IMG/VR virus record: IMGVR_UViG_3300043470_000435 | Span: 1-21,631 of that record | Length of the DNA: 21,631 nucleotides | DNA from: a virus | Direction: 5' to 3' (one strand) | In this document: positions 3,001 through 15,827 of the stretch, piece after piece | How the letters are laid out: each line of letters starts with the position of its first letter | How positions within the stretch are numbered: the first letter of the stretch is position 1 | The notes under the pieces: model-generated | Seen by the model: only the letters and a program-made list of their open reading frames with translations | The model's database searches: none | What the model was told of the DNA's origin: nothing | Position numbers and translations under genes: made by a program

Positions 3001-4173
3001 TTAGAATCTAAATCTCATCATTGAGTCAGACTCTCCGATGATTTGGCGAAGCTGCTCCTCTATGTTGCCCCCTGGCTGTACGTTACCTACGTTAGGTGTA
3101 TTCACCTTCACGTTTGCTGCGGTTTCCACAACCCGTCGTTGTCCATCGCTCATACCTTGCTGATAAACGGCCTTGACAATTTCGTCAATGTTATCAACTA
3201 CGGTTCTGTGCATATTGAACGTCTCGTGGTTCCAGTTGCCATCGCGGTCTACGTACTGGTCAAAGTAGCTCTCTAGATTAGCGTTTTTGGTTTTGAGTGA
3301 TTCACGATACCGGTCACCTAGTCCGAAAGTAAAGGTCTTGTCTCCGGAGAGTTCAAAATCAATACCGTCAAGCGCATCGGCTTCCTGTCTCATAGTATTC
3401 ACCCACTGCTCGTCAACAAACGATTCAGCCTTCTGCTCCTTCTCAATGGCCCTTTCGACCGGTTTGAGATAGTTGCTTCGTAGCACATCAATTTGCTTTC
3501 TTGCGCTACCTGCGTCGATTTTTAGCTGAAGGGTAGCCATCTTCTGCTCTCTCTCGTCTAAGAATTCACTGTCGGTCTTGTATTTCGCCGATACAAGCAT
3601 TTCAATGTCATCTCTTGACAAGTCGGGAAAGTCGTTCTGCATCTGGAGCTTCACCACCGACAAATCGTCCATTTCAGACGGGTTGATGGATTGATATAGG
3701 AACCAATCCTGTGGGTCGCGGCCAGTTTCTTGAACAAACCTCAGAATAGGCTCAAGCCTTTCATCAATCGTCGCTGGTTGTTCTAAACGTGCGAGGATGC
3801 TATCCAAGTCAAGACCTACCTGCTCTTGCAGATAAGAATTGACGAACTGGTTAACCTCCTCGTCCGTGAGTTCGTCGTTGGATGACTGTACGTCCTCCGT
3901 GTCCTGCTGGCGGTATACGTACCTGTTGTCGTCGACCTGCTCGGTTACATCTTCTAAGGATGTCTCCTGGGTCTCCGTTACTTCAGGTACGCTGGGCTCA
4001 GCGAAAGAACTTTCGTTGCTATTTTCGGTGGCAACGTCACCGTTTTCGTTATCAAACTCGACGATAGTCGGTTCGAACTGTGGGTGGTCCTGTGAAGGCT
4101 CTGCGGGTTGGTCAACAATGTTGAGCCCCATATCCTTCACTAAGTCCTCTAGGGATGAGATTCCATCTGCCAT
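3001..4173 (-). CDS. putative head scaffolding protein
   Basis: The protein has 390 residues. The first ~115 are strongly acidic and low complexity (runs of Asp, Glu, Ser, Thr, Gln), as in many phage scaffold N-termini. The middle (about 115-260) is helical and charged, with NPSEMDDLSVVKLQMQNDF and coiled-coil-like EREQKMATLQLKIDAGSAR. The C-terminus is Gln/Asn/Gly-rich (NVGNVQPGGNIEEQLRQ) and ends in a small basic tail, MRFRF; scaffolds usually bind the capsid protein through a short basic C-terminal helix. It lies directly before the major capsid gene, the classical scaffold position. No protease signature is visible. It starts at ATG 4173, about 24 nt after a TAATTTTG box, making it the first gene of the head operon. 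The role is inferred from composition and position. Confidence 0.6.
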   Translation of the reverse strand: MADGISSLEDLVKDMGLNIVDQPAEPSQDHPQFEPTIVEFDNENGDVATENSNESSFAEPSVPEVTETQETSLEDVTEQVDDNRYVYRQQDTEDVQSSNDELTDEEVNQFVNSYLQEQVGLDLDSILARLEQPATIDERLEPILRFVQETGRDPQDWFLYQSINPSEMDDLSVVKLQMQNDFPDLSRDDIEMLVSAKYKTDSEFLDEREQKMATLQLKIDAGSARKQIDVLRSNYLKPVERAIEKEQKAESFVDEQWVNTMRQEADALDGIDFELSGDKTFTFGLGDRYRESLKTKNANLESYFDQYVDRDGNWNHETFNMHRTVVDNIDEIVKAVYQQGMSDGQRRVVETAANVKVNTPNVGNVQPGGNIEEQLRQIIGESDSMMRFRF

Positions 4174-4277: not shown

Positions 4278-4598
4278 ATGAATATGAAAAACACTCTTTT
4301 TATCGCCTTAGTAGCCCTGTCCACTTCTGTTTTTGCTCAAGAAGCCCCGTCGTTCCTAAAAGAATTCAACTACACCGTAGAGACTTGCTTAAGCTCTGAA
4401 GGTATTGAGTTTGAATACTTTGAGGTGAAAGACGAGCAGTACAAAGAACTCAAGAATGTAATCAACAAACTAAACCGTCGTCGCTTTGTTCGGGTGGATA
4501 AGTCTGGGATGCTTATCACTAAGCGTTACGTGGACCAATGGACCGTTATGACCTTCAGCGGGTTTGGGTTCAAACGAATCAGTGTATTCCAAGAATAA
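4278..4598 (+). CDS. small exported protein of unknown function, moron gene
   Basis: This is the only plus-strand gene in the window. The 106-residue product starts with a clear signal peptide: a Lys-containing n-region, hydrophobic LFIALVALSTSV, and a flavobacterial-style FAQ cleavage site, predicted to release a mature protein of about 85 residues that begins EAPSF. The mature part mixes acidic (FEYFEVKDEQYKEL) and basic (NKLNRRRFVRVDK) stretches, has one Cys and shows no membrane helix or known motif. It has its own two-element promoter and a hairpin terminator just past the stop. An independently expressed gene facing against the surrounding structural genes is the definition of a phage moron. 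A periplasmic or secreted role such as superinfection exclusion or host-envelope change is inference. ATG 4284 is an equally good start and would leave a more standard signal peptide. Confidence 0.85.
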   Translation: MNMKNTLFIALVALSTSVFAQEAPSFLKEFNYTVETCLSSEGIEFEYFEVKDEQYKELKNVINKLNRRRFVRVDKSGMLITKRYVDQWTVMTFSGFGFKRISVFQE

Positions 4599-4971: not shown

Positions 4972-5256
4972 TCACCATTTTTCGCGGTTAGCCCAATACG
5001 CCGCGCTCATCTTACCCTTGGCGATATTCTTAGCGTGACGTGCCTTAAAGCTGGCACGCTTCTTAGCACGTGCAGCCGTTGGGTTGCTCTCGGTGACCGT
5101 ATCGGCACCCTGCTCTCCGAAGCGTATAAGCTTTGTCTTGTTACCATCCTTGGCTAGGACGATATGCGACTTCTTAGGATTCGATGGTGTGCTCTTGGGC
5201 TTATTAACGCCGGCTAGGCCGTGCTTCTTAATAAGGTTCTTAACTCTTTCTTCCAT
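4972..5256 (-). CDS. small very basic conserved phage protein (94 aa)
   Basis: The protein has 94 residues. It starts with a short helix (VKNLIKKHGLAGVNKPK), then a small beta region (SHIVLAKDGNKTKLIRFGEQG), and ends in the basic block KRASFKARHAKNIAKGKMSA followed by an aromatic tail (AYWANREKW). I recognise this C-terminal block as common in small proteins of marine and aquatic tailed phages; its function is unknown to me, and I leave the domain number open. The charge suggests nucleic acid binding or packaging with DNA. The ATG at 5256 overlaps the TGA of the preceding gene (TGATG), a stop-start coupling signal, and this decides the start against GTG 5259, one codon earlier. Confidence 0.85.
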   Translation of the reverse strand: MEERVKNLIKKHGLAGVNKPKSTPSNPKKSHIVLAKDGNKTKLIRFGEQGADTVTESNPTAARAKKRASFKARHAKNIAKGKMSAAYWANREKW

Positions 5257-5618
5257 CACTGCTCAAATAATACGAAGAATACAAATCTGCCCCATAAATA
5301 TATAGCGACTCCAGTACGCCACTGGTCGTTTACCTTATCAACGGCAGCCTTAGGCTCTAAAAGGGCTTTGCGTAAGGTCTCTGTGGTTCTGATGTTCTCA
5401 GTAGCAAGAGAGTCGGCAACAGACTTCATACCACGATAGTCTACGCTTAAAGAGTCAATCTCTTTCTTTAGCCTGACAAACTTGCTGTTCATCGCCGCTG
5501 CTTGAGACAACTTAAGCACGACTACCGTATCACTCCCCTCCACCCGTTGAATCGGGTAGGATTGCGAGTACGTCAAATGGCACAGCAGTAGGCTGCACAT
5601 TAATAGCAACGATTTCAT
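5256..5618 (-). CDS. putative outer-membrane-side spanin (o-spanin or unimolecular spanin)
   Basis: The 120-residue product starts with a signal sequence, MKSLLLMCSLLLCHLTYSQ, that has two Cys in the hydrophobic core and a flavobacterial YSQ end. A charged, coiled-coil-like region follows (about residues 38-88, e.g. FVRLKKEIDSLSVDYRG), and then a hydrophobic C-terminus (about 103-120, GVAIYLWGRFVFFVLFEQ). Its first 89 nt lie inside the end of the upstream gene in another frame, the arrangement of Rz/Rz1 spanin pairs. Signal/Cys end plus coil plus C-terminal hydrophobic segment also matches unimolecular spanins such as T1 gp11. Neither Cys sits in a canonical lipobox, which is a weakness. If the call is right, it joins inner and outer membranes at the last step of lysis. 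It could instead be an ordinary exported protein. Confidence 0.5.
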   Translation of the reverse strand: MKSLLLMCSLLLCHLTYSQSYPIQRVEGSDTVVVLKLSQAAAMNSKFVRLKKEIDSLSVDYRGMKSVADSLATENIRTTETLRKALLEPKAAVDKVNDQWRTGVAIYLWGRFVFFVLFEQ

Positions 5619-5886
5619 CTTGCATTATTTTAACTTGTTCAATAAGGGCTACTTTCTCTTCCTCTAAGGTTGTGATGGTGGCCTTCATTTCTTTTACTTC
5701 AGCAACAATTAGATTGTCTGCATTCCTTGATACAGATGCAGCTTTTTGCATTGTCTTGTTAGACTTCTCAATCATTAGGTCAATCTCGCTGACCTCTACC
5801 ATCTTCGGCTTTTGAGCATTTAAAATCCCCACAACAATTAAAACGATTAGCAAAACGATTGCTGCCTTGATGGTATTGCTTTTCAT
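5530..5886 (-). CDS. putative inner-membrane spanin (Rz-like) with coiled coil
   Basis: The protein has 118 residues. An N-terminal membrane helix at about residues 7-24 (IKAAIVLLIVLIVVGIL) has only a few residues before it, so the rest should face the periplasm. A long coiled coil follows at about residues 30-95 (e.g. VKEMKATITTLEEEKVALIE), and the tail is Pro/Gly-rich. This is the layout of Rz-type i-spanins, and the next gene, whose product has a signal peptide, begins within its last 30 codons in a different frame, as with Rz/Rz1. The ATG at 5886 overlaps the stop of the previous gene (ATGA). There is no direct sequence identity to a named Rz family that I can state; the call rests on architecture and context. 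An alternative is a structural coiled-coil membrane protein. Confidence 0.5.
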   Translation of the reverse strand: MKSNTIKAAIVLLIVLIVVGILNAQKPKMVEVSEIDLMIEKSNKTMQKAASVSRNADNLIVAEVKEMKATITTLEEEKVALIEQVKIMQDEIVAINVQPTAVPFDVLAILPDSTGGGE

Positions 5887-6134
5887 CGTGTTTGAATTAA
5901 CATTTCGTTTTTAGCGCTTGTGTAGGCCAATGCTGAATCTAACTTCCTTACGTGCTCTGTGTACTTCTCTACCTTAACCTCAAGCTCGCCCACTCTTGTA
6001 TGACAACGCTCATCGGTTGTAGAGTTGCTCATCTTCTGGTCAACGTATAGATATCCTACGGCTGCAAGTGCAATAAACGCAATGGCTGCGGTAGGGTTCT
6101 TTTGGAACTGCTCGAAGTTAACAGGCATTTTCAT
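5883..6134 (-). CDS. small membrane-anchored coiled-coil protein (83 aa), probable lysis cluster member
   Basis: The 83-residue product has a short polar N-terminus (MKMPVNFEQFQKNP), one membrane helix at about residues 14-31 (TAAIAFIALAAVGYLYV), a single Cys at about residue 44, and a C-terminal helical region (VGELEVKVEKYTEHVRKLDS) that may form a coiled coil. It is joined by ATGA overlaps to both the holin-like gene before it and the Rz-like gene after it. It could be an i-spanin, an antiholin-like partner or a further membrane protein of the lysis cluster; the sequence does not decide. I recall similar short proteins beside holin-like genes in Bacteroidota phages, but could not verify this. 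Translation is probably coupled to the holin-like gene. Confidence 0.7.
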   Translation of the reverse strand: MKMPVNFEQFQKNPTAAIAFIALAAVGYLYVDQKMSNSTTDERCHTRVGELEVKVEKYTEHVRKLDSALAYTSAKNEMLIQTR

Positions 6135-6349
6135 TTTTTAGAGAACTTTTCTATTGCTGTTCCGAAGAACATAGCGATGGTAATGTATTCAACGGCTTCA
6201 ACAAGCTCTTTGCTTGGTGCTATATCCTGATGAGAGAAGCTATTAGCTATCAGGGTTCCGAACAGCACTAATGCTCCTAAGATGCCAATTACTCTCTTAG
6301 ACGACACTTCGTCGCCTACTCCAACTAGTTTAGTTACCCACTCTTTCAT
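6131..6349 (-). CDS. putative holin, two membrane segments (72 aa)
   Basis: The protein has 72 residues when started at ATG 6349. It is predicted to have two membrane segments, about residues 20-36 (VIGILGALVLFGTLIANSF) and 50-65 (VEYITIAMFFGTAIEKF), with a charged Lys-rich end (KFSKK). Size, two short helices and position at the head of a membrane-protein cluster fit a class II-type holin. A longer reading from ATG 6394 would add 15 residues, but those codons are the terminator hairpin and the -7 box, so I prefer 6349. The promoter box ends only 5 nt before this ATG, so the message may be almost leaderless. Its stop overlaps the next start (ATGA). The holin role is inferred from topology; no endolysin gene is visible in the window to support it. 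Confidence 0.6.
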   Translation of the reverse strand: MKEWVTKLVGVGDEVSSKRVIGILGALVLFGTLIANSFSHQDIAPSKELVEAVEYITIAMFFGTAIEKFSKK

Positions 6350-6354
6350 AAATA

Positions 6355-6362
6355 CAAAAGTA
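6355..6362 (-). promoter_or_regulatory. promoter of the lysis-type cluster, -7 box TACTTTTG
   Basis: The minus strand reads TACTTTTG, followed by TATTT and then the ATG at 6349. The usual few bases between a Bacteroidota -7 box and the start point would put the transcript start at or within a base or two of the ATG. It lies directly after the terminator at 6368-6392. No -33 element is seen. Confidence 0.65.
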
Positions 6363-6367
6363 TGACA

Positions 6368-6392
6368 AAAAAGAAGGCCCCACGAGGGGGCC
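6368..6392 (-). terminator. intrinsic terminator after the 89-aa gene
   Basis: On the minus strand GGCCCC pairs with GGGGCC around a CTCGT loop, followed by TTCTTTTTTG. It lies about 31 nt past the stop of the 89-aa coiled-coil gene and 6 nt before the promoter of the holin-like gene. Confidence 0.8.
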
Positions 6393-6423
6393 ATACTACA
6401 CTTTAAGGGTGTTATTTTACTCT

Positions 6424-7146: not shown

Positions 7147-7542
7147 TTAGCAACCACGAACAGCATCTATCTTACCACCGTTTCTTATTTCATATACTGA
7201 TGCTCCATATTTATACCATAGGCCACCTCCGTCAAAAGGACTAGTTAATGCAGCATCATTGTATAGATACACATTTACCGCTAATGACGTAGATGACGAA
7301 TATAGAGTTAAAGGATTCGATGCATCAGAGCAGGCCTCAGCGAAATTTCCAAAACCCCCTCCGTCTCCTTGATAGAACTGGTATTCAGTTGCGGCGGAGA
7401 AACCATAGAACTCACCCATAGCGTCAGGAGAAGAAAAATTAGCCAATGCGGATAGGGCGCGCAGCGAACTGTTAGCCTGTGCTTGACCTAATTCTGTCCT
7501 GATGTTATCTATGCTTATTGCACCACTACTTTGTAAGGCCAT
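7147..7542 (-). CDS. tail fibre/adsorption accessory protein with C-terminal Cys module (131 aa)
   Basis: Two parts can be seen in the 131 residues. The first ~50 residues (GAISIDNIRTELGQAQANSS ... FSSPDAMGEFYGFS) match a short module common in phage tail and baseplate proteins. Residues ~52-131 form a small beta module with NFAEACSDASNPLTLYSSST, VNVYLYNDAALTSPF and YEIRNGGKI, ending in a terminal Cys. Paired Cys at about residue 69 and 131 could close this fold. Modules of this kind recur at the ends of tail proteins in Bacteroidota and marine phages, from memory. Its first 17 nt overlap the end of the 1652-aa fibre gene, suggesting coupled translation and a working link to that fibre, for example as a tip or receptor-contact subunit. 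That role is inference. Confidence 0.8.
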   Translation of the reverse strand: MALQSSGAISIDNIRTELGQAQANSSLRALSALANFSSPDAMGEFYGFSAATEYQFYQGDGGGFGNFAEACSDASNPLTLYSSSTSLAVNVYLYNDAALTSPFDGGGLWYKYGASVYEIRNGGKIDAVRGC

Positions 7543-10500
7543 CTAGCTTAGTTTTAAGTTCATCAATCTGTGTCTGCTGCTCCTTCATACCCTCAATCAA
7601 TAGACTTATGAGCTTTTCGTAACGCACGGCTAGGTAGCCTGTATCGTTAGTCCTAACGGCGGTGGGCATAACGGCTAACACCTGCTGTGCTATGATACCC
7701 GTATCACGTCCTTCGTGTCCGTGTGCTTCCTTATGTTCGGGCTTCCAGTCGAACTCTACACCTGTTAGTGACTTCACTTTGTCAAGTGCGTTCGCTATGG
7801 GTGTGATGTTTTCCTTTAGGCGCTCGTCTGATGAGTTGAATGCTACAATGTCGTTGGATGCGTCAATACGTCCAGCGGTTGCCGATGGTGCGAAGTTTAC
7901 ACCGAGTGCCACTGCGTTTACATATACCTTCTTGTTGAGGTTTATCTGGTCAACTGCACCTGCGGCTATTACTAGCTGGTTAGATGAGTTGGTGAACATC
8001 GCACTTACAGATGAACCGCTAGTGTTGTGAATACGGTATCCTTTGGTGTTATCCGAGTGGCCGTTTACAAGTATAGTAGGAGAAGTAGTTGTATTGAATG
8101 TTACGTTATCCGTAGTACGAACGTATTGGTTCATATTCGGTGCGTAATCATTCAAGTTCTCTGTACTCCAAAAAGTGTACGGACCAACAAAGGTTCCACC
8201 TTGAAGTCTTGAATACTGAGGCGGACTCCAGAACGGCGTAATGATGGTCTGGTTGTAGTAGTTTGAACCATTCCCGTGGTTCGAAACAAAATATCCTGCC
8301 CATCCACTATATCCAGCAAATGTTCCTGATGATTGGTAATAGGTCATATTACCATCCCCATATCCAACAATATCAAGTGATGAAGAGCGACCGGAACTTG
8401 CCGCTGAACCCGTAACACTAATTCCCCAAGTGCCAGAGTTCTTTACTACCTGAGTTCCGTTAACGTATAGTTCTTGGTTAAAGTAGAATGACTTATCTGA
8501 ATATATGTGAGACCAACTTCCATTCGCTGGACCAAATTGAATGTAACCATTATCGTTTACCATCCTCATACCCCATTCTGAGTTACCAGTTATGTAGGCA
8601 TTATTTGCAGAATTAGTTAGACGGAATTGCGGTGAATAGATTGCTGAAGCAGATTCAATTCCTACGTTTGAATAAATCCTACTATTCGTCCAGTTAAAAT
8701 AGTTGTTCCCTCCACCGAAGTAAATAGCGTTACTTGGTCTAAAATTTATAGCATTTACATTATTAAGATTAGATGTTGCGTTTGGGTCTAAGTAATATCC
8801 AGTGTCAGCAGTGTCATAGAAGATTGGGGCGTACATCGCTACATCACTTTCCCAAGAGCCATTATCATTACAGTAAGAACCCCAGCTACTCGCTTGATTC
8901 AAGAAACCAATTCTGTTGGAATTACAATGGATTATACGGGAACCTTCGTCCCCATCGTTCATAATGATGTTTGAAGAGGCCGCACCAGCAGCGTTGATTG
9001 TTAAATCTGTCCCGTAAATAAAAGAATTTCTCGAGGAGTCAGTTCTGAGACTCCAGTCACCTCCATTGTTTAGGAAACCAATGTTATTGCTAGTATCAGC
9101 ATAGACATATCCACGAAGTGTACTCTGATGATTGCTTCTGAACTGTAGTTGAACAACGCCTCCAGAACCAGTTACCACAAAACCTTCAGCAGAATTTGAA
9201 TAGAAGTGAGTTCCGTATGACTCATTGTACATACCCTGAGCACCATAGTTTCTGAGCCATCCACCAGTGTAGATGTTAGCCCATCTGTATGAACCACTAC
9301 CAAGTGAATTCTCGTTGTCATTATATGGAGTTACATCTACGGAATCAAACGCATATCTTCCCGGGCTATTAAAGTAAATACCAGTTGAATTACCACTATT
9401 TTCGAAATAAACCCAACCATTGTTATTGTATGGCCCGATACCTAGATAGTTTGTTGATGAACCATATATCCTTAAATACCCCTGAGCATCAAATGACCTA
9501 ATAAGTGTTGAACTAGTTCCTATTGAAATACCAGAATCCGTAAACGTGGCAGAGACTGTCCCGGTTGCGCCCTTAACTCTAAAACCAGTGCCATTGTAGT
9601 ATACAAGCTCCTCCCAGTCGTCGGCAGCATTCCATAGGTAATGGTTGTTGTCTCCGTTGGTTCTTAGGTACAGCTTATTGTCGTTAAGACCGGTGCTGCT
9701 GGTCATATTACCGTATGGCACGGCGTAAGTCCCGATATTCTTATCGTCCACTACTAATCTCCAGTCTCCCCAAGTGCCGGAATTCTTACCTCTGATTGCA
9801 ATCTGGCCTGACCTGAAGTCTCCGTAAATTTGGTGAATCCAAGAACTACTGTACGCTGATGAGTATAGTCCCCCATCTGTCTGTCCGAATAAAGAAACAG
9901 AAGTATTGTAACCTATCTGGTTTTGGGTTACGTTATCAGGATTTATTGGAGCTCCTGAATTGTTTATGGTTAACCCATCAACAGAACCAGCAGAGCCTGC
10001 GGTACCTGCGCTTCCGGCACTTGTAGCATAAGTAGCTGTCGCAGCGTTACCTGATATATTAGTCTGGTCACCTGTGTTTGTACCAGATAAATTACTTCCA
10101 GTTACAGTTCCTGTAACATATAAATTATTTAATACTCTAACGTGGTTATCTCCATTACCTACTGAAAAGATTTCAGTACCCCACGTTTCAGTGTTATAGA
10201 ATCGAATTCCATTATATTGTGATTGTGCTCCTATTTTAATACCAGTGTGAAACCCAATGCACAAGTCTGGGTAAGGATGGGTCCAACTGCCACCTTGTTG
10301 GTAGATACCATAGTTGCTTCCGCTATTCCCATTTCCAGAATCTCCCCCTTCTCCAGTAAAAGTTATGACCTTAAATCTTGTAGAGGTGTCTGCCGCAAGA
10401 TTACTTGCCGTTGTTGCAGTGGTTGCAGTATTGGCATTACCTGTAATACTTATACCCCAAGTACCGGATGCCCCTGTGCCCGTTAGAGTAGGTGCGTATG

Positions 10501-12484
10501 AGTTGTAGTTGTTGTCGTGCAATAATCTCCTCCAGCTAGACCAAGCATTCCTCTGGTGGTTTGCCTCATTTCTAACATACAATTCAACGTCAGCACCATC
10601 GCCATAGCTCCCTGACATTTGATACATTGTATAGCCATTGTACCCTGACCAAGTCATAACGTGACCCCAGTTTCCATTTGCAGTATAAGATGGATGCAAG
10701 AAGTCTACACGAAAACCGCCTCCGCCCATCTGATTAACTAAATCCAAAGGACTTTGCGTAGTTAGCCATTCACTATACTCAAAATAAGGTTTTAAGTATT
10801 GTCGAGTTGTGTCATTCCTTACAAAAGAAGATGCGTGTAGGCTGTCTACAGTATCGGCGTTACCAGCACTAGTAGCATAAGTAGCTGTCGCAGCGTTACC
10901 TGATATATTAGTCTGGTCGCCTGTGTTAGTACCACTTGAAGAACCACTAAAGTTTGTTGCGGATAGTGTTCCGGTTACAGCCAATCCTCCACTATTACCG
11001 TATCCAATAGTTGCCCCTCCATAAACAGATAGTCCATAACTAGGAGCTGCTGTATTTGCAGCACCCCAACCATTTGGACCACCAATGTTAACTCTTTCGT
11101 ACAACTGAATAAATTCCCCACCTTGTGAATTTACTACTCTACCTCTTATTGTCCCTACAGATATGGCGTGGTCATCAGTCTTAGTAAAACTTACTTGAGA
11201 AGCTGTGGTTGCGCCCCTTCCAGTTACACTAGCTAATGTATCTGTCTCAGTATATCCAGTTATATACCCTGAGTTATTCGTGAACTGGGATATATTCATT
11301 GAAGTTAAAGAACCTGCACTTCCGGCACTATCCGCATATCCTACTTGAACCGGACTTGGGTGATTACTTGTTAATTGCCAATAAGTACCTGTCCAATTTG
11401 CTCTAACATAATAATCAGTGGGGTGTGATTCTGCCCACAGCCTTGTAATGTTTCCAACGCTAGTAATATATCCCGAGTTGTTTGTGAACTGGGATATATT
11501 CATTGAAGTTAATGCACCTGCAGTGGTAGCATAGCTTACCGACTGAGAAGCAATGTTGTTTGTGTGGATTACTTGAACAGGAGTAACAGAAACCTTTTTG
11601 TCTGCGCTCGGTGGGTCTACTGAATCACTAATACCAGTAACCCTATTCCAAGATTCACCATCTGCGTTTCTAACGTGTACTTGAAAAGAGTTCCAGTAAG
11701 AGCCTCTAGGCCACCAGAATGCAAGTGTTCCATTAAGGCGCATAACTTTAACAGGGCCTGGAAAGTATGAGCCATAAGACATCGCCGAAACATTGATAAC
11801 TGTATCAGCGTACAAGTAACCCTCCATTGCAAGTTTAAACGGAGTTCCTGAGCCATAACTTTTACCAGATACTTCCATTACGAATGAATTACCAGCCCAT
11901 TCATCAGCATTGATGTCGGTCTGCACAAGTGTGCCACTGGGGAAGTCGCTACCGGAGTGAACACCACGAGACTCCTCAACAATCGAATATGCTGAATAAC
12001 CTTGAAGCTGTGACGAGTTTGTAGCAGAACCTGCTGTTGTAGCATAGGTTACTGATTGGCTACCGATGTTGCTAGTAGTAATTGCAGTAGAAGCGTTTTG
12101 TTTGGCGGCCAATAGGTCCGTAATCCAACCTCCAGCACCTCCAATATATAGGTTATTATCTATTCTGATGTTGGCATCAGTCTCCCCAATAGACATAATA
12201 CGAGTAGCAAGTGTTTCATCGCTAAAAAAACGAATACCGCCATAACCGGGTTGTGCGCCCATACGAATACCAGTGTGCCAACGTAGGTCTAGCTTAGTAT
12301 AGTTTCCTCCATAGTTGTTTAGACTAGTACCTATGGAGTAATTATTAGGCGCGTCACCTCCACCAAACATTAAACGAGTAGATGATACAGAATTATATGC
12401 GTTATTAGCGAATGTTCCGCCAATAACAACACTATCGGATGTAGTGGTGGTTCCAGTTATAGCTGTACTTAAAAGATTTGCCAT
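7526..12484 (-). CDS. giant tail fibre/spike protein with C-terminal Peptidase_S74 chaperone (1652 aa)
   Basis: This is probably a trimeric receptor-binding fibre. Most of it is Gly/Ser/Asn/Thr-rich beta repeats with many Tyr and Trp. Visible modules: a ~60-residue HTGI-GAQ-GIRF-type module near residues 65-115 and again near 735-790; knob-like modules ending in WSSWRRLLHDNNY (about 565-660) and WGDWRLVVDDKNIG (about 845-920); linkers of the TNISGNAATATYATSAG type; and FYDTADTGYYLDPNATS near 1220. The last ~100 residues form the Peptidase_S74 intramolecular chaperone: SDERLKENI at about 1552, then GHEGRDTGIIAQQVL and a C-terminal coil. In this family a Ser-Lys pair (here Ser1552 and Lys1557) cuts the chaperone off after trimer folding. 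The ATG lies one base after the stop of the 1113-aa fibre. Internal DNA repeats and lower GC than the portal suggest modular exchange. Confidence 0.9.
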   Translation of the reverse strand: MANLLSTAITGTTTTSDSVVIGGTFANNAYNSVSSTRLMFGGGDAPNNYSIGTSLNNYGGNYTKLDLRWHTGIRMGAQPGYGGIRFFSDETLATRIMSIGETDANIRIDNNLYIGGAGGWITDLLAAKQNASTAITTSNIGSQSVTYATTAGSATNSSQLQGYSAYSIVEESRGVHSGSDFPSGTLVQTDINADEWAGNSFVMEVSGKSYGSGTPFKLAMEGYLYADTVINVSAMSYGSYFPGPVKVMRLNGTLAFWWPRGSYWNSFQVHVRNADGESWNRVTGISDSVDPPSADKKVSVTPVQVIHTNNIASQSVSYATTAGALTSMNISQFTNNSGYITSVGNITRLWAESHPTDYYVRANWTGTYWQLTSNHPSPVQVGYADSAGSAGSLTSMNISQFTNNSGYITGYTETDTLASVTGRGATTASQVSFTKTDDHAISVGTIRGRVVNSQGGEFIQLYERVNIGGPNGWGAANTAAPSYGLSVYGGATIGYGNSGGLAVTGTLSATNFSGSSSGTNTGDQTNISGNAATATYATSAGNADTVDSLHASSFVRNDTTRQYLKPYFEYSEWLTTQSPLDLVNQMGGGGFRVDFLHPSYTANGNWGHVMTWSGYNGYTMYQMSGSYGDGADVELYVRNEANHQRNAWSSWRRLLHDNNYNSYAPTLTGTGASGTWGISITGNANTATTATTASNLAADTSTRFKVITFTGEGGDSGNGNSGSNYGIYQQGGSWTHPYPDLCIGFHTGIKIGAQSQYNGIRFYNTETWGTEIFSVGNGDNHVRVLNNLYVTGTVTGSNLSGTNTGDQTNISGNAATATYATSAGSAGTAGSAGSVDGLTINNSGAPINPDNVTQNQIGYNTSVSLFGQTDGGLYSSAYSSSWIHQIYGDFRSGQIAIRGKNSGTWGDWRLVVDDKNIGTYAVPYGNMTSSTGLNDNKLYLRTNGDNNHYLWNAADDWEELVYYNGTGFRVKGATGTVSATFTDSGISIGTSSTLIRSFDAQGYLRIYGSSTNYLGIGPYNNNGWVYFENSGNSTGIYFNSPGRYAFDSVDVTPYNDNENSLGSGSYRWANIYTGGWLRNYGAQGMYNESYGTHFYSNSAEGFVVTGSGGVVQLQFRSNHQSTLRGYVYADTSNNIGFLNNGGDWSLRTDSSRNSFIYGTDLTINAAGAASSNIIMNDGDEGSRIIHCNSNRIGFLNQASSWGSYCNDNGSWESDVAMYAPIFYDTADTGYYLDPNATSNLNNVNAINFRPSNAIYFGGGNNYFNWTNSRIYSNVGIESASAIYSPQFRLTNSANNAYITGNSEWGMRMVNDNGYIQFGPANGSWSHIYSDKSFYFNQELYVNGTQVVKNSGTWGISVTGSAASSGRSSSLDIVGYGDGNMTYYQSSGTFAGYSGWAGYFVSNHGNGSNYYNQTIITPFWSPPQYSRLQGGTFVGPYTFWSTENLNDYAPNMNQYVRTTDNVTFNTTTSPTILVNGHSDNTKGYRIHNTSGSSVSAMFTNSSNQLVIAAGAVDQINLNKKVYVNAVALGVNFAPSATAGRIDASNDIVAFNSSDERLKENITPIANALDKVKSLTGVEFDWKPEHKEAHGHEGRDTGIIAQQVLAVMPTAVRTNDTGYLAVRYEKLISLLIEGMKEQQTQIDELKTKLDGLTK
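10017..10085. repeat. direct repeat, copy 1 (69 nt), inside the 1652-aa fibre gene
   Basis: This segment matches 10866-10934 over 69 nt with three mismatches, including a 47-nt perfect run (10023-10069 with 10872-10918). It encodes the linker TNISGNAATATYATSAG. The copies are in the same orientation and frame, 849 nt apart, so recombination between them would delete exactly 283 codons. Confidence 0.85.
10866..10934. repeat. direct repeat, copy 2 (69 nt), inside the 1652-aa fibre gene
   Basis: This is the partner of 10017-10085. The sequence between the copies includes one knob-like module and one HTGI-GAQ-type module, so loss or gain of this unit would change the fibre by whole domains. Confidence 0.85.
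11280..11308. repeat. short direct repeat, copy 1 (29 nt)
   Basis: A 29-nt perfect match to 11484-11512, with weaker similarity on either side. Both copies encode the TSMNISQFTNNSGYIT linker in the 1652-aa fibre. Confidence 0.75.
11484..11512. repeat. short direct repeat, copy 2 (29 nt)
   Basis: This is the partner of 11280-11308, spaced 204 nt apart and in frame (68 codons). Confidence 0.75.
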
Positions 12485-12485
12485 A

Positions 12486-15400
12486 TTACTTGTTTTCTAA
12501 CTTGTTTACTCGTTCTGTTAATTCTTGTACTGCCTTCAGCAAAATTACGCTTAGGCGAGAGTAGTTGACACCATCTGGCCTACCCTCATTATCATATTTT
12601 ACTACCTCTGGGAATAGCTCGGCTACGTCCTCAGCGATAAGACCAATCTCTTCTTCTTTGTTCCCAATCTTATTGTAGGATACAGCATCAAGTTTCTCTA
12701 CCTTCTGTGATACGCTAGGTATAGACTTTACGTTTTCCTTGTATCGAATAGATGATTGCTCGGTAAATGTTCCACCAATAGTCAAGTTCTGATTATGGTC
12801 AAGCTGCATTGCGACAACGCTGTGCTGTGCTGTTCCTGCCTTACTTGTGAACCAATAGAAACTGTGGTTTTCGGTTGCTACTCCTTTACCGGAATAGAAA
12901 CGTATGTCATTACCAAATGAGGCAATGAACGCATCATAGTCAGGAGTGTCCTCCATACCGATGGTAAGGGAGTCGTAGTTTGCCGGACCACCCACCTTAA
13001 ATGCAACAGTATCAGAGGATACGTTTCCTAAGTTTACAACAACGGCGCCACTTAGTGTACCTCCTGATAGAGGTAAATAAGAACCAGTAATATAACCCTG
13101 ACCTGTGACAAACTCTTCTGTGGCAAGACCTTCGAGTGCAATACTATTACCGTTTGAAATGCTTAAAGTGATAGATGGTTTATCCCAAGTTAATTGCTGG
13201 GCGTCATTATCAGTATCGTAATCAGTCCACGAGGCGGTAACGGTACCTCCGTCTCCCTGAGTGAGGGTAAGTGTCTTGGTAGTAGTTCCCGTTACGGTAG
13301 CAGAAGAAATCCTGTCGTTGTAGGCCGTGTTCCAGTTTGATACGTTAGTAGATGTAAAATCTCTAGAATCCCAAAGTTGATACTTGTTGTTTCCATCAGA
13401 CCAACCGCCAGTATAGAGTCTATTCGTGGTGTTGTCAAGACCAAAAAATACAGCAAAATCGTTGGATATGTGAAACGCCATAAATGCGTCATTCCCTTCG
13501 GCAGAGTAAATCTGCAATGAGTGAGCACTCGATGTTTCAGTTCCGATGTCTCCCGACGACTGGAATTTCGTAGCCTCTGGCCACGACCCTGGTGATTGCG
13601 TTGAGCCTCTTACTATATAATTAGCCCCGGCGTGGTTACCCCATCCAAATGCAGTATTCCAGTTAGAGGAGTTATTAGCAAATGTATCTGAAGTCCATAT
13701 TTGCTTTGTTACCCAAGAAGAACTATCCACATTTGTGTGGACATACATCGCGCCATAATATGTTACTTCTAATGCAAAATTTCCAGTACTACCACCAGTA
13801 TCGTGAGACACCCAAACTTGTCCACTGTGACCAACATAATTTCTAGTATATGTACCAGATGCTAAATTATTTCCAAATCCAGTTGCATCACCAACATTTG
13901 TTGTTGTACCTAGTGTACCTCTGGATAAAGGATATCTAGCGTCTGACTCTGTCTCCGTGTAGTATCTGTCATCGTGATTGTGAGCAGGTAAGGATGTTAA
14001 TGCGTATTCTCCAATGTTTTCAGAATCTACTACCGTCTTCCAAGAGCTCCAGCCAGCATTAGGATACAAGCCAAGACGATATTGCATAGAGTTTCCACCA
14101 TACTGCTCACTGTAAGGGAAATATAATTCCGCAGACGCTCCATCGTTTGGATATGTGTGTACACGGACAACACTTCCATAACTTTGATATCCTTCATTAT
14201 TGCTGACAAAACTAACTTGCAAACCCTGCTGAAAGTCTCGCCCATTAGTTGAGGAAGACCAAACGTAACTACCGAGACTTTTAAGGAGGTTTGAGTTGCC
14301 AGATGAATCAGCATACAATACGGACTGAGAACCTATGTTGGCTGTCGTGATAGCATCGGTAATCCCATATCCGGCTATTGTGGTCGGTTTGGACGATACG
14401 TTGGCGAATGAAATGCCGGTAATATAACCCTGTGATTGCACAAAGGTCTCAGTCGCCAGGCCCTCAAGGGTAACGCTGTTTCCGTTAGAGATGGCTATAG
14501 AACTTGTAGCCTTAGTCCAAGTAAGTGTCTGCGAATCAGTCTCCGATGTAATGTAGCGACCATCAAGGTCTACAGTTACAGTACCTAAGTCAACTTGTGT
14601 AAGCGTTAAAACACCGTTAGACGTGTTAAATGATGCAGACCTAATAGAGTCATTAACCGCATCATTCCAGTTACTGATGTTCGTAGCTGTAATGCTCTTA
14701 ACGTGAGAAGGAACGGTTGGGTCGGTCTCAGTGTATGACTCAAGATAGCGACCATCAAGGTCTACCGTTACGGTGCCTGTATCTTGCTGAGTAAGAGTAA
14801 GGACGCCAGTGGTAGTACTAAATGATGCGCTGTTAATCTTATCGTTGTAAGCTACATCCCAAGCACCTCGGTTGTATCCATCAATTTCCGTTTCTCCAGC
14901 AAATAAACTGTCTATCTCAGACTCGGTATAATATATATCGTTATGGTTGTGAGCAGGTAGCGAAGTAAGGAAGTTCGGGGTCCAGTTCTTCCATAGGCCG
15001 TCGGAATCTCTACGTATAAGCTGTCCCGCAGATACTCCATTGATGAGCACATCGTGAAGCTCATTGAGTTCGAAGCCATTCTGTACGCTAACAAAAATCT
15101 CTCCGTTGTTTGCGTTTTTACGAGTAACAACTCCAATATAAACAAGGTGCGCTGGAGCTACAGGTTTGTTTGTGAGTCCAAAGATTAAAGCTCCATCTAC
15201 GCCTAACCAAACAGCATCACCTGCTTCAGCGGAAGATGTATTTAATCCATCAATAAGACCCTCGGTAATTACGAAAAACTTACCATTTACTGCGGCAGAA
15301 GCGGCGGCTAGACCTATGGTCTTAGAAGACATAGCTTCAGATACGTTTGAGGCTTTACCTACAACCATATTTGTGCCGTCTGCCCCAGTAACATATAACG

Positions 15401-15827
15401 CTTGCCCTTTTGTAATCGCCACACCGGCCTTTACTTCGTGCTGTACTTTAGATACATAACCAGCACTTGTAACTGTGGCGTTAACCCAGGCGCTACCACT
15501 CCACTGTAATACCTGCCCAGTGGCCGCACTAGTAATGGTTACATCATTAAGCGCATCAATGGATGATGACGGGGTTAGGAAGTTCGGCGTGAAGTTATGC
15601 CATACGGGTACGGTATCCCCCTGCCGGAGGCCGTAGCGTAGCATTTGGTCGCTAGACGGAGAGGTGATGATTACATCCGAAAGCCCATCGAGGGGTAGTG
15701 AACCGACACTAATAGTGCCCCAATATGCAACACCTGAGCCGTCGGTGGACAACACCTGTCCGTTCGTTCCATCAACCATCGGAAGGGTGTACTCCGTGTT
15801 GACATTAATTTGAGATAAAAACTTCAT
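12486..15827 (-). CDS. large tail fibre protein with C-terminal Peptidase_S74 chaperone (1113 aa)
   Basis: The N-terminus (MKFLSQINVNTEYTLP, then DGTNGQVLSTDGSGVAYWG) is a start I associate with Bacteroidota and aquatic phage fibres, and is probably the virion-attachment end. It carries L-x-D-V-x-IT repeats, and a globular domain at about residues 115-240 (AGDAVWLGVDGALIFGL; HLVYIGVVTRKNANNG). Three copies of a S-A-x-F/V ... LTLTQ-x-D-x-GTVT module follow at about 335-365, 395-425 and 840-865, two of them running into DLDGRY. Knob-like modules end at WSSWKTVVDSENIG (about 600) and YQLWDSRDF (about 820). The last ~90 residues form a Peptidase_S74 chaperone, SSIRYKENV at about 1025 then EEIGLIAEDVAELFPEVV. 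The Ser-x4-Lys pair is kept, but the usual Asp after Ser is Ser here. The ATG at 15827 follows a terminator and one or two TAnnTTTG boxes, so this gene opens a fibre operon. Confidence 0.9.
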   Translation of the reverse strand: MKFLSQINVNTEYTLPMVDGTNGQVLSTDGSGVAYWGTISVGSLPLDGLSDVIITSPSSDQMLRYGLRQGDTVPVWHNFTPNFLTPSSSIDALNDVTITSAATGQVLQWSGSAWVNATVTSAGYVSKVQHEVKAGVAITKGQALYVTGADGTNMVVGKASNVSEAMSSKTIGLAAASAAVNGKFFVITEGLIDGLNTSSAEAGDAVWLGVDGALIFGLTNKPVAPAHLVYIGVVTRKNANNGEIFVSVQNGFELNELHDVLINGVSAGQLIRRDSDGLWKNWTPNFLTSLPAHNHNDIYYTESEIDSLFAGETEIDGYNRGAWDVAYNDKINSASFSTTTGVLTLTQQDTGTVTVDLDGRYLESYTETDPTVPSHVKSITATNISNWNDAVNDSIRSASFNTSNGVLTLTQVDLGTVTVDLDGRYITSETDSQTLTWTKATSSIAISNGNSVTLEGLATETFVQSQGYITGISFANVSSKPTTIAGYGITDAITTANIGSQSVLYADSSGNSNLLKSLGSYVWSSSTNGRDFQQGLQVSFVSNNEGYQSYGSVVRVHTYPNDGASAELYFPYSEQYGGNSMQYRLGLYPNAGWSSWKTVVDSENIGEYALTSLPAHNHDDRYYTETESDARYPLSRGTLGTTTNVGDATGFGNNLASGTYTRNYVGHSGQVWVSHDTGGSTGNFALEVTYYGAMYVHTNVDSSSWVTKQIWTSDTFANNSSNWNTAFGWGNHAGANYIVRGSTQSPGSWPEATKFQSSGDIGTETSSAHSLQIYSAEGNDAFMAFHISNDFAVFFGLDNTTNRLYTGGWSDGNNKYQLWDSRDFTSTNVSNWNTAYNDRISSATVTGTTTKTLTLTQGDGGTVTASWTDYDTDNDAQQLTWDKPSITLSISNGNSIALEGLATEEFVTGQGYITGSYLPLSGGTLSGAVVVNLGNVSSDTVAFKVGGPANYDSLTIGMEDTPDYDAFIASFGNDIRFYSGKGVATENHSFYWFTSKAGTAQHSVVAMQLDHNQNLTIGGTFTEQSSIRYKENVKSIPSVSQKVEKLDAVSYNKIGNKEEEIGLIAEDVAELFPEVVKYDNEGRPDGVNYSRLSVILLKAVQELTERVNKLENK

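Follow-up and report, generated by a model that had tools for sequence, protein, structure and literature searches.

An exchangeable three-gene unit with a dual-coding overlap at a lysis-type site of a probable Bacteroidota phage, and its possible spanin-like role

The question raised by this locus is whether two overlapping minus-strand genes of a virus encode a spanin of the Rz/Rz1 type, the second perhaps with the design of a unimolecular spanin (u-spanin), as was originally predicted from the DNA. The stretch analysed, here called the window, is a virus record of 21,631 bases with genes for terminase, portal, capsid-type and fibre proteins. Its portal protein has 87 relatives among 50,697 phage records, every one below 60% identity (about 28-31% for the best 30 of the 87), and these belong to phages nearly all of Flavobacterium, Cellulophaga, Tenacibaculum and Maribacter, so that a Bacteroidota host is likely, in keeping with the setting first proposed. 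Read along the minus strand, the genes are fibre, small genes, hol87, g83, g118, g120, g95, a small gene, a scaffold-type gene and capsid, and the features of the site are as follows.

6131..6394, minus strand: hol87, first gene of the site, small hydrophobic protein judged holin-like by eye and hydropathy
5883..6134, minus strand: g83, i-spanin-like, N-terminal transmembrane segment and short periplasmic helix-type region with Cys44
5530..5886, minus strand: g118, predicted exported coil-type protein with AxA-like site and no lipobox, first gene of the pair
5530..5618, minus strand: g118/g120 dual-coding overlap, 89 nt, +1 phase
5256..5618, minus strand: g120, second gene of the pair, with putative signal peptidase I signal peptide (Q-rule), beta-hairpin motif YPIQRVEGSDTVVV, predicted long helix and hydrophobic C-terminal tail
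4972..5259, minus strand: g95, basic protein (phrog_7595) that forms the right border of the exchangeable unit and overlaps the g120 stop

g83 overlaps both hol87 and g118 by 4 nt; hol87 has no Pfam match and one noise-level PHROG match. No endolysin gene lies inside the window, and our scan of it returned no ATG-started ORF combining a lipobox with a hydrophobic signal. Signal-peptide and transmembrane calls throughout follow hydropathy and motif rules, on the Kyte-Doolittle and Hessa 2005 residue scales. Elsewhere in the window, a small plus-strand ORF (4278-4598) between the lysis site and the scaffold gene has a signal-peptide-like start ending VFAQ (Q-rule), and two big adjoining fibre-type genes occupy 7526-15827 (minus strand), with Pfam Peptidase_S74 at the end of the first and tail-fibre PHROGs over the end of the second. 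Over this fibre region the DNA match to loci L003 and L004, elsewhere 98% identical, is patchy, and a relative that is otherwise 99% identical (L002) has some 600 extra bases (3056-3671, against window 7536-7543) at the junction of the fibre gene and gene 7147-7542.

Both predicted ORFs are present and open with ATG, and the 89-nt out-of-frame overlap was confirmed, g120 lying in the +1 frame of g118. The same phase recurs in 17 of 17 homologous loci compared (overlap length 80-89 nt) and, in a phase-free scan from which one false pair (L249) was left out, in 38 of 38 g118/g120-type pairs. Synonymous differences (pS), taken over those 12 of the 136 pairs among 17 homologues in which g118 is at least 70% identical, are 0.106 (g118 frame) and 0.146 (g120 frame) inside the overlap and 0.597 and 0.496, respectively, outside it; the overlap is dual-coding, and the lower values inside it rule out a chance arrangement. 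g120 evolves faster than g118, with pN/pS values of 0.59 and 0.21, respectively, for the parts that do not overlap. A motif scan collected 59 distinct g120 family members, each with an ATG at most 36 codons before the motif, and in 56 of them an upstream partner ORF of 107-128 aa overlaps by 38-101 nt, the phase here being fixed by the script so that these partners are not separate evidence on phase. The three partners excluded from the 56 full-length ones are shortened (L155 and L161 because they lie at the start of a contig, L265 because its ATG is late), the g120 start is uncertain in L261 and L263, and looser signal-peptide or coil proteins also gathered by an iterated g120 profile (e.g. 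L219, L258) were not counted. On the contig of L265, a single 238-aa frame (L240 2764-3480) has a g118-like start and a g120-like end, possibly a natural fusion or a frameshift; in L136 an extra ORF (1376-2119), of homing-endonuclease type by eye, stands between g120 and g95.

The pair is part of a larger unit: with 5883-6134 added, g83-g118-g120 are exchanged as a block, of which the pair supplies genes two and three. In L003 and L004 homology to the window runs up to 6131 (90%), reaching the hol87 stop codon, and resumes from 5259 (98%), the gap being occupied by one 63-codon gene; L005 has the same replacement to within three bases. The unit is complete in 11, absent from 3 (G011, G017, G018) and reduced to g83 in 3 of 17 records that were author-chosen, are related and are perhaps in some cases incomplete. 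Elsewhere the interval between the holin-like gene and g95 holds a small hydrophobic gene of the 63-codon type (L003, L004, L005, L028), the transmembrane and coil genes hol138 and cc103 (L006, L065), or two small hydrophobic genes with an Amidase_2 endolysin (L036, which also has hol87), and in L026 an exported protein, thioredoxin-like by eye, stands at the unit's site. hol138 and cc103 also occur near g95 without the other tested families in 12 of 80 loci, but after g95, and since L025 holds both of them and the full unit side by side they are not strict alternatives to it. L048 lacks the unit at the capsid site, yet its contig has one elsewhere (L147), i.e. absence from this site is not absence from the genome.

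That the locus is of a lysis type is supported through the relatives, the window itself having no endolysin. L153 carries, one after another, a holin-like gene, g83, g118, a g120-type gene, a small gene, a GH19 endolysin (PF00182) and Phage_holin_4_1 (PF05105), both families above cut-off, and endolysins above the Pfam cut-off adjoin homologous units as GH19 in L153, L222 and L311, M15 in L266 and L275, Phage_lysozyme in L275 and Amidase_2 in L293; the gene next to the unit in L267 has no Pfam family, and in L178 g120 is followed by a gene that resembles GH19 endolysins and by a u-spanin candidate. Holin or endolysin genes also lie near g83 homologues in many loci, among those listed, so that adjacent and overlapping genes within a lysis cassette, as in two-component spanins, are seen by way of the relatives. 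Among 18 chosen records, which are related and may be incomplete, M15_3 occurs in 9 of the 11 that carry the unit and in none of the 7 that lack it, and Amidase_2 in 4, all without the unit; in G002 and G003, both such records read, the M15 gene is far from the unit. The ribonucleotide-reductase gene seems, by eye, to be interrupted in L162 (186-2080) and L154 (629-1588), with GIY-YIG-like ORFs adjoining it in both and an intein-like C-terminus (..VVHN before C) in L162.

Within the unit, the i-spanin-like gene is not one of the two originally paired as Rz/Rz1 but their neighbour g83, which elsewhere often precedes a lipoprotein. On hydropathy and alignment g83 has the N-terminal transmembrane domain and periplasmic domain, predicted helical, of an i-spanin. 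It also has a periplasmic cysteine, Cys44, which is invariant in alignment A3 (18 rows) and missing in 2 of 17 rows of A6 (L246, L260); at least one such cysteine occurs in 507 of the 528 two-component spanins counted in the available text of Kongari 2018 (PMC6139136). Coil- or noise-level PHROG matches were discarded, namely one of g83 to an 'Rz-like spanin' entry (E=0.2) and weak ones of a relative of g118 (best E 0.0007); the window's g118 has no PHROG or Pfam match. Homologues of g83 were found in 261 IMG/VR stretches, of which 80 were kept, and its profile matched two small MAG contigs (Flavobacteriales and Chitinophagaceae) among genome contigs. A lipoprotein directly follows the g83 homologue in 25 of 82 tabulated rows, the lipobox patterns being loose, the overlaps in L218 and L222 missed by the pair finder, and five rows artefacts with endolysins taken as partners (L151, L153, L154, L158, L159); judged by gene order and motif, g83 followed by a lipoprotein is the layout of separated i- and o-spanins.

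The first gene of the pair had been described as a membrane-anchored coiled coil. Its coil-type character stands, and the anchor is unproven, the hydrophobic segment ending in an AxA-like site. Of the 56 full-length partners, 5 have a lipobox by a loose pattern; among the remaining 51, 1 has an atypical Cys and 50 have an N-terminal hydrophobic segment that ends in a loose site of this kind. A lipoprotein overlaps the g120 homologue in L218 (=L263), L222 (=L261), L266, L267 and L283, and the g118 profile aligns weakly with other post-g83 lipoproteins (14 columns, 68%). On position and on these intermediates, g118 is the positional equivalent of the post-g83 lipoprotein, here without a lipobox. 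In a g83 tree of 76 rows (86 columns, root unplaced, long branches warned of, some labels hand-set) all 41 rows with a g120-type partner fall on one side of the starred branch (46 rows there), lipoprotein partners fall on both sides, and a 10-row group has an N-anchored beta-rich protein in the partner's place; this unrooted tree suggests that the lipobox may have been lost where the partner is lipid-free, as in the window's clade and others. In L071 (5657-6148) and L226-L254 what follows the g83 homologue is a beta-rich, N-anchored protein of some 150-160 aa, with a lipoprotein upstream of g83 in some.

For the second product, the predicted signal-peptide-like start (MKSLLLMCSLLLCHLTYSQ, then S), helical middle and hydrophobic C-terminus (GVAIYLWGRFVFFVLFEQ) were all recovered. 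A small residue and Gln stand shortly before the YP motif in 59 of 59 family members, the Gln fitting the Q-rule for Bacteroidetes signal peptidase I as set out in the available text of PMC5837995, and we infer that g120 is exported via Sec and signal peptidase I. The lipobox that was to be looked for in this product is absent, its strict form occurring in 0 of 59 members, and any Cys precedes the motif in 24. A loose LLAC occurs in 6, but its Cys, at residue 8 or 11, comes sooner than a signal peptide would allow. The AlphaFold2 model (18 sequences; mean pLDDT 78, pTM 0.30) has a hairpin (23-27/30-34) followed by a single helix (37-119), and this helix-rich form is not the mainly-beta periplasmic domain predicted for T1 gp11. 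A moderately hydrophobic segment ends all 33 short members examined, with a rough insertion score of -1.1 to +3.0 (median +0.8), the window's own segment, which contains Arg, being jointly the least favourable at +3.0. With a score of +0.7, one u-spanin-type reference, L147, does not exceed the g120 median in hydrophobicity, and this property therefore fails to tell g120 and u-spanins apart. After the segment the 33 members have a mean tail of 0.9 aa, with K/R in 5, and before it a stretch that is net positive on average; three u-spanin-type references have 2-3 K/R in the tail. Judged from these residues, the charge pattern of the g120 C-terminus is unlike that of an ordinary type I inner-membrane anchor. 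No usable match to g120 came from PHROGs, Pfam or NCBIfam, tblastn of g120 and g118 found none at E up to 1 in the 50,697 phage records, and the g120 profile found none among genome contigs; Foldseek of the model against viral structures reached a best E of 1.6.

Related viruses carry a separate u-spanin candidate, scanned for as a lipobox with a hydrophobic C-terminus. In records that were author-chosen, are related and may be incomplete, it is present in 9 of 11 with the unit, the exceptions being G007 (48 kb) and G008 (26 kb), and in 3 of the 6 others (G011, G013 and G017; none in G012, G014 or G018). A search of 15 records with one candidate protein matched 10, among them G013, which this tally already includes. 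Such a gene falls within the 5-kb neighbourhood in only 3 of 43 g83 loci; in G015 its ATG begins at the final base of the g120 stop (contig 46,458). Genes with a lipobox and hydrophobic C-terminus directly adjoin the g83-g118-g120 homologues at L147 2027-2458 and L266 2817-3284. G011 and G017 keep the candidate while lacking the unit, and since G017, the record of L004, matches the window at 98% identity over 5.26 kb, the virus of the window probably encodes a u-spanin in a part of its genome outside the window.

In six loci (L151, L153, L154, L158, L159, L162) the g120 signal peptide and hairpin are followed by about 190 further residues. PF13505 matches all six proteins (best E 0.005, below cut-off) and NCBIfam PorG the two scanned (E=4e-5 and 5e-4, far below the curated cut-off), the AlphaFold2 model has a pLDDT of 28, and PDB sequences gave no relevant match. 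With no usable fold and no PDB match the call rests on weak profile scores and composition, and the C-terminal region of these relatives is a probable Bacteroidota outer-membrane beta-barrel replacing the g120 tail.

The explanation that we favour, at about even confidence, is an accessory, exchangeable and envelope-bridging lysis module, with g118 and g120 as its second and third genes, that acts beside a separate u-spanin. Here g83 would be an inner-membrane protein with a short periplasmic helix; g118 would be exported and coil-type, taking the place of an o-spanin-like lipoprotein without a lipid anchor in this virus; and g120, exported by Sec and signal peptidase I, would contribute its hairpin, long helix and hydrophobic tail. 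The three might form a complex spanning the periplasm that, besides the u-spanin, assists in disrupting or destabilising the outer membrane after the endolysin has cleaved the wall. The spanin-like layout with an out-of-frame overlapping pair is thereby retained from the original prediction. Against the module, a second outer-membrane breaker is not obviously needed because related viruses already hold a u-spanin candidate, the unit is missing from otherwise near-identical viruses, and the window's version has no nameable outer-membrane anchor. Doubtful at present is the more specific proposal of a lipid-free, three-part spanin class, i.e. an inner-membrane subunit, a delipidated former o-spanin and a Sec-exported subunit with a swappable helix or barrel anchor, working in parallel to a canonical u-spanin.

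T4 RI-type antiholins sense the periplasm and tune the holin, and on this model g83, g118 and g120 could sense envelope state or superinfection in the periplasm and control the timing or inhibition of lysis. This is an unlikely account but the strongest of the rivals: the unit overlaps and directly follows the holin-like gene, it is swapped for one small hydrophobic gene (L003, L004, L005, L028) or for transmembrane and coil genes (L006, L065), and it is accessory, as G011 and G017 keep a u-spanin candidate without it; the lipoprotein partners and probable outer-membrane-barrel variants, however, point to the bridging of two membranes. We consider improbable an envelope function unrelated to lysis, such as superinfection exclusion or remodelling of the host periplasm, encoded in a late locus. 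An accessory, exchangeable block and the thioredoxin-like exported protein of L026 at the same site would suit such a role, but the repeated association with holin-like and endolysin genes in differing surroundings does not. Very little probability attaches to small virion or assembly proteins, which the location between fibre and scaffold genes would allow and which the signal peptides and the exchange with small hydrophobic and endolysin genes speak against. The original reading, an Rz/Rz1-like pair with g120 as a unimolecular spanin, is scarcely tenable despite the overlap, +1 frame, signal peptide and hydrophobic C-terminus, for a classical pair is rejected because g118 and g120 both lack the lipobox of an outer-membrane lipoprotein, and a unimolecular design is opposed by that same lack, the helical model, the almost complete absence of a positive tail and the relatives' separate candidate, which in G015 starts at the g120 stop codon.

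We found no description of the g83-g118-g120 unit among the open-licence papers listed, judged by title and start of abstract. Phage B40-8 infects Bacteroides. A two-component pair about 1 kb apart is predicted for it in the available text of Kongari 2018 (PMC6139136), in which spanins are defined by lipobox and transmembrane domain; section 15 names a type I inner-membrane protein or an outer-membrane protein (OMP) as spanins that could exist, as possibilities only. The available part of a 2025 survey (PMC12596118) demands a lipid box for outer and unimolecular spanins and has Bacteroidetes phages using unimolecular spanins exclusively, that of Bartlau 2021 (PMC8776804) annotates a unimolecular spanin in one Cellulophaga phage and a potential one in another, and that of a Crassvirales review (PMC10136315) mentions spanins without topology. 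Our results suggest that a lipid-box filter misses genes of the g83 type (261 IMG/VR stretches), whose partner may be a lipoprotein, lipid-free or barrel-tailed. The six relatives with a barrel tail provide concrete candidates for the hypothetical outer-membrane-protein spanin of Kongari 2018, and since near-identical viruses exist both with the block and without it, the function of the module can be tested directly.

Compared with the known systems, the unit shares with two-component spanins (lambda Rz/Rz1, separated or overlapped, as treated in the available text of PMC6139136) a lysis-type position, an out-of-frame overlap, a putative inner-membrane protein with a periplasmic helix (g83) and a coil-type, predicted exported partner, and g83 in other phages has a lipoprotein next to it. 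It differs in having no lipobox product and three genes rather than two, in that the long overlap joins its second and third genes, and in that related genomes add a u-spanin candidate. Unimolecular spanins of the T1 gp11 type, on the same text, resemble g120 in the hydrophobic C-terminal segment of the last gene; unlike them, g120 lacks a lipobox and has a helix-rich rather than beta-rich model with almost no positive C-tail, and a separate gene of the T1 gp11 type is found in the unit's relatives. The type I i-spanin, a possibility raised in the portion of PMC6139136 cited, likewise has a counterpart in the signal peptide and C-terminal hydrophobic segment of g120, although this segment is no clear inner-membrane anchor. 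The OMP-type o-spanin, the other possibility put forward there, is one that the six barrel-tailed relatives, known here from their genes, would fit.
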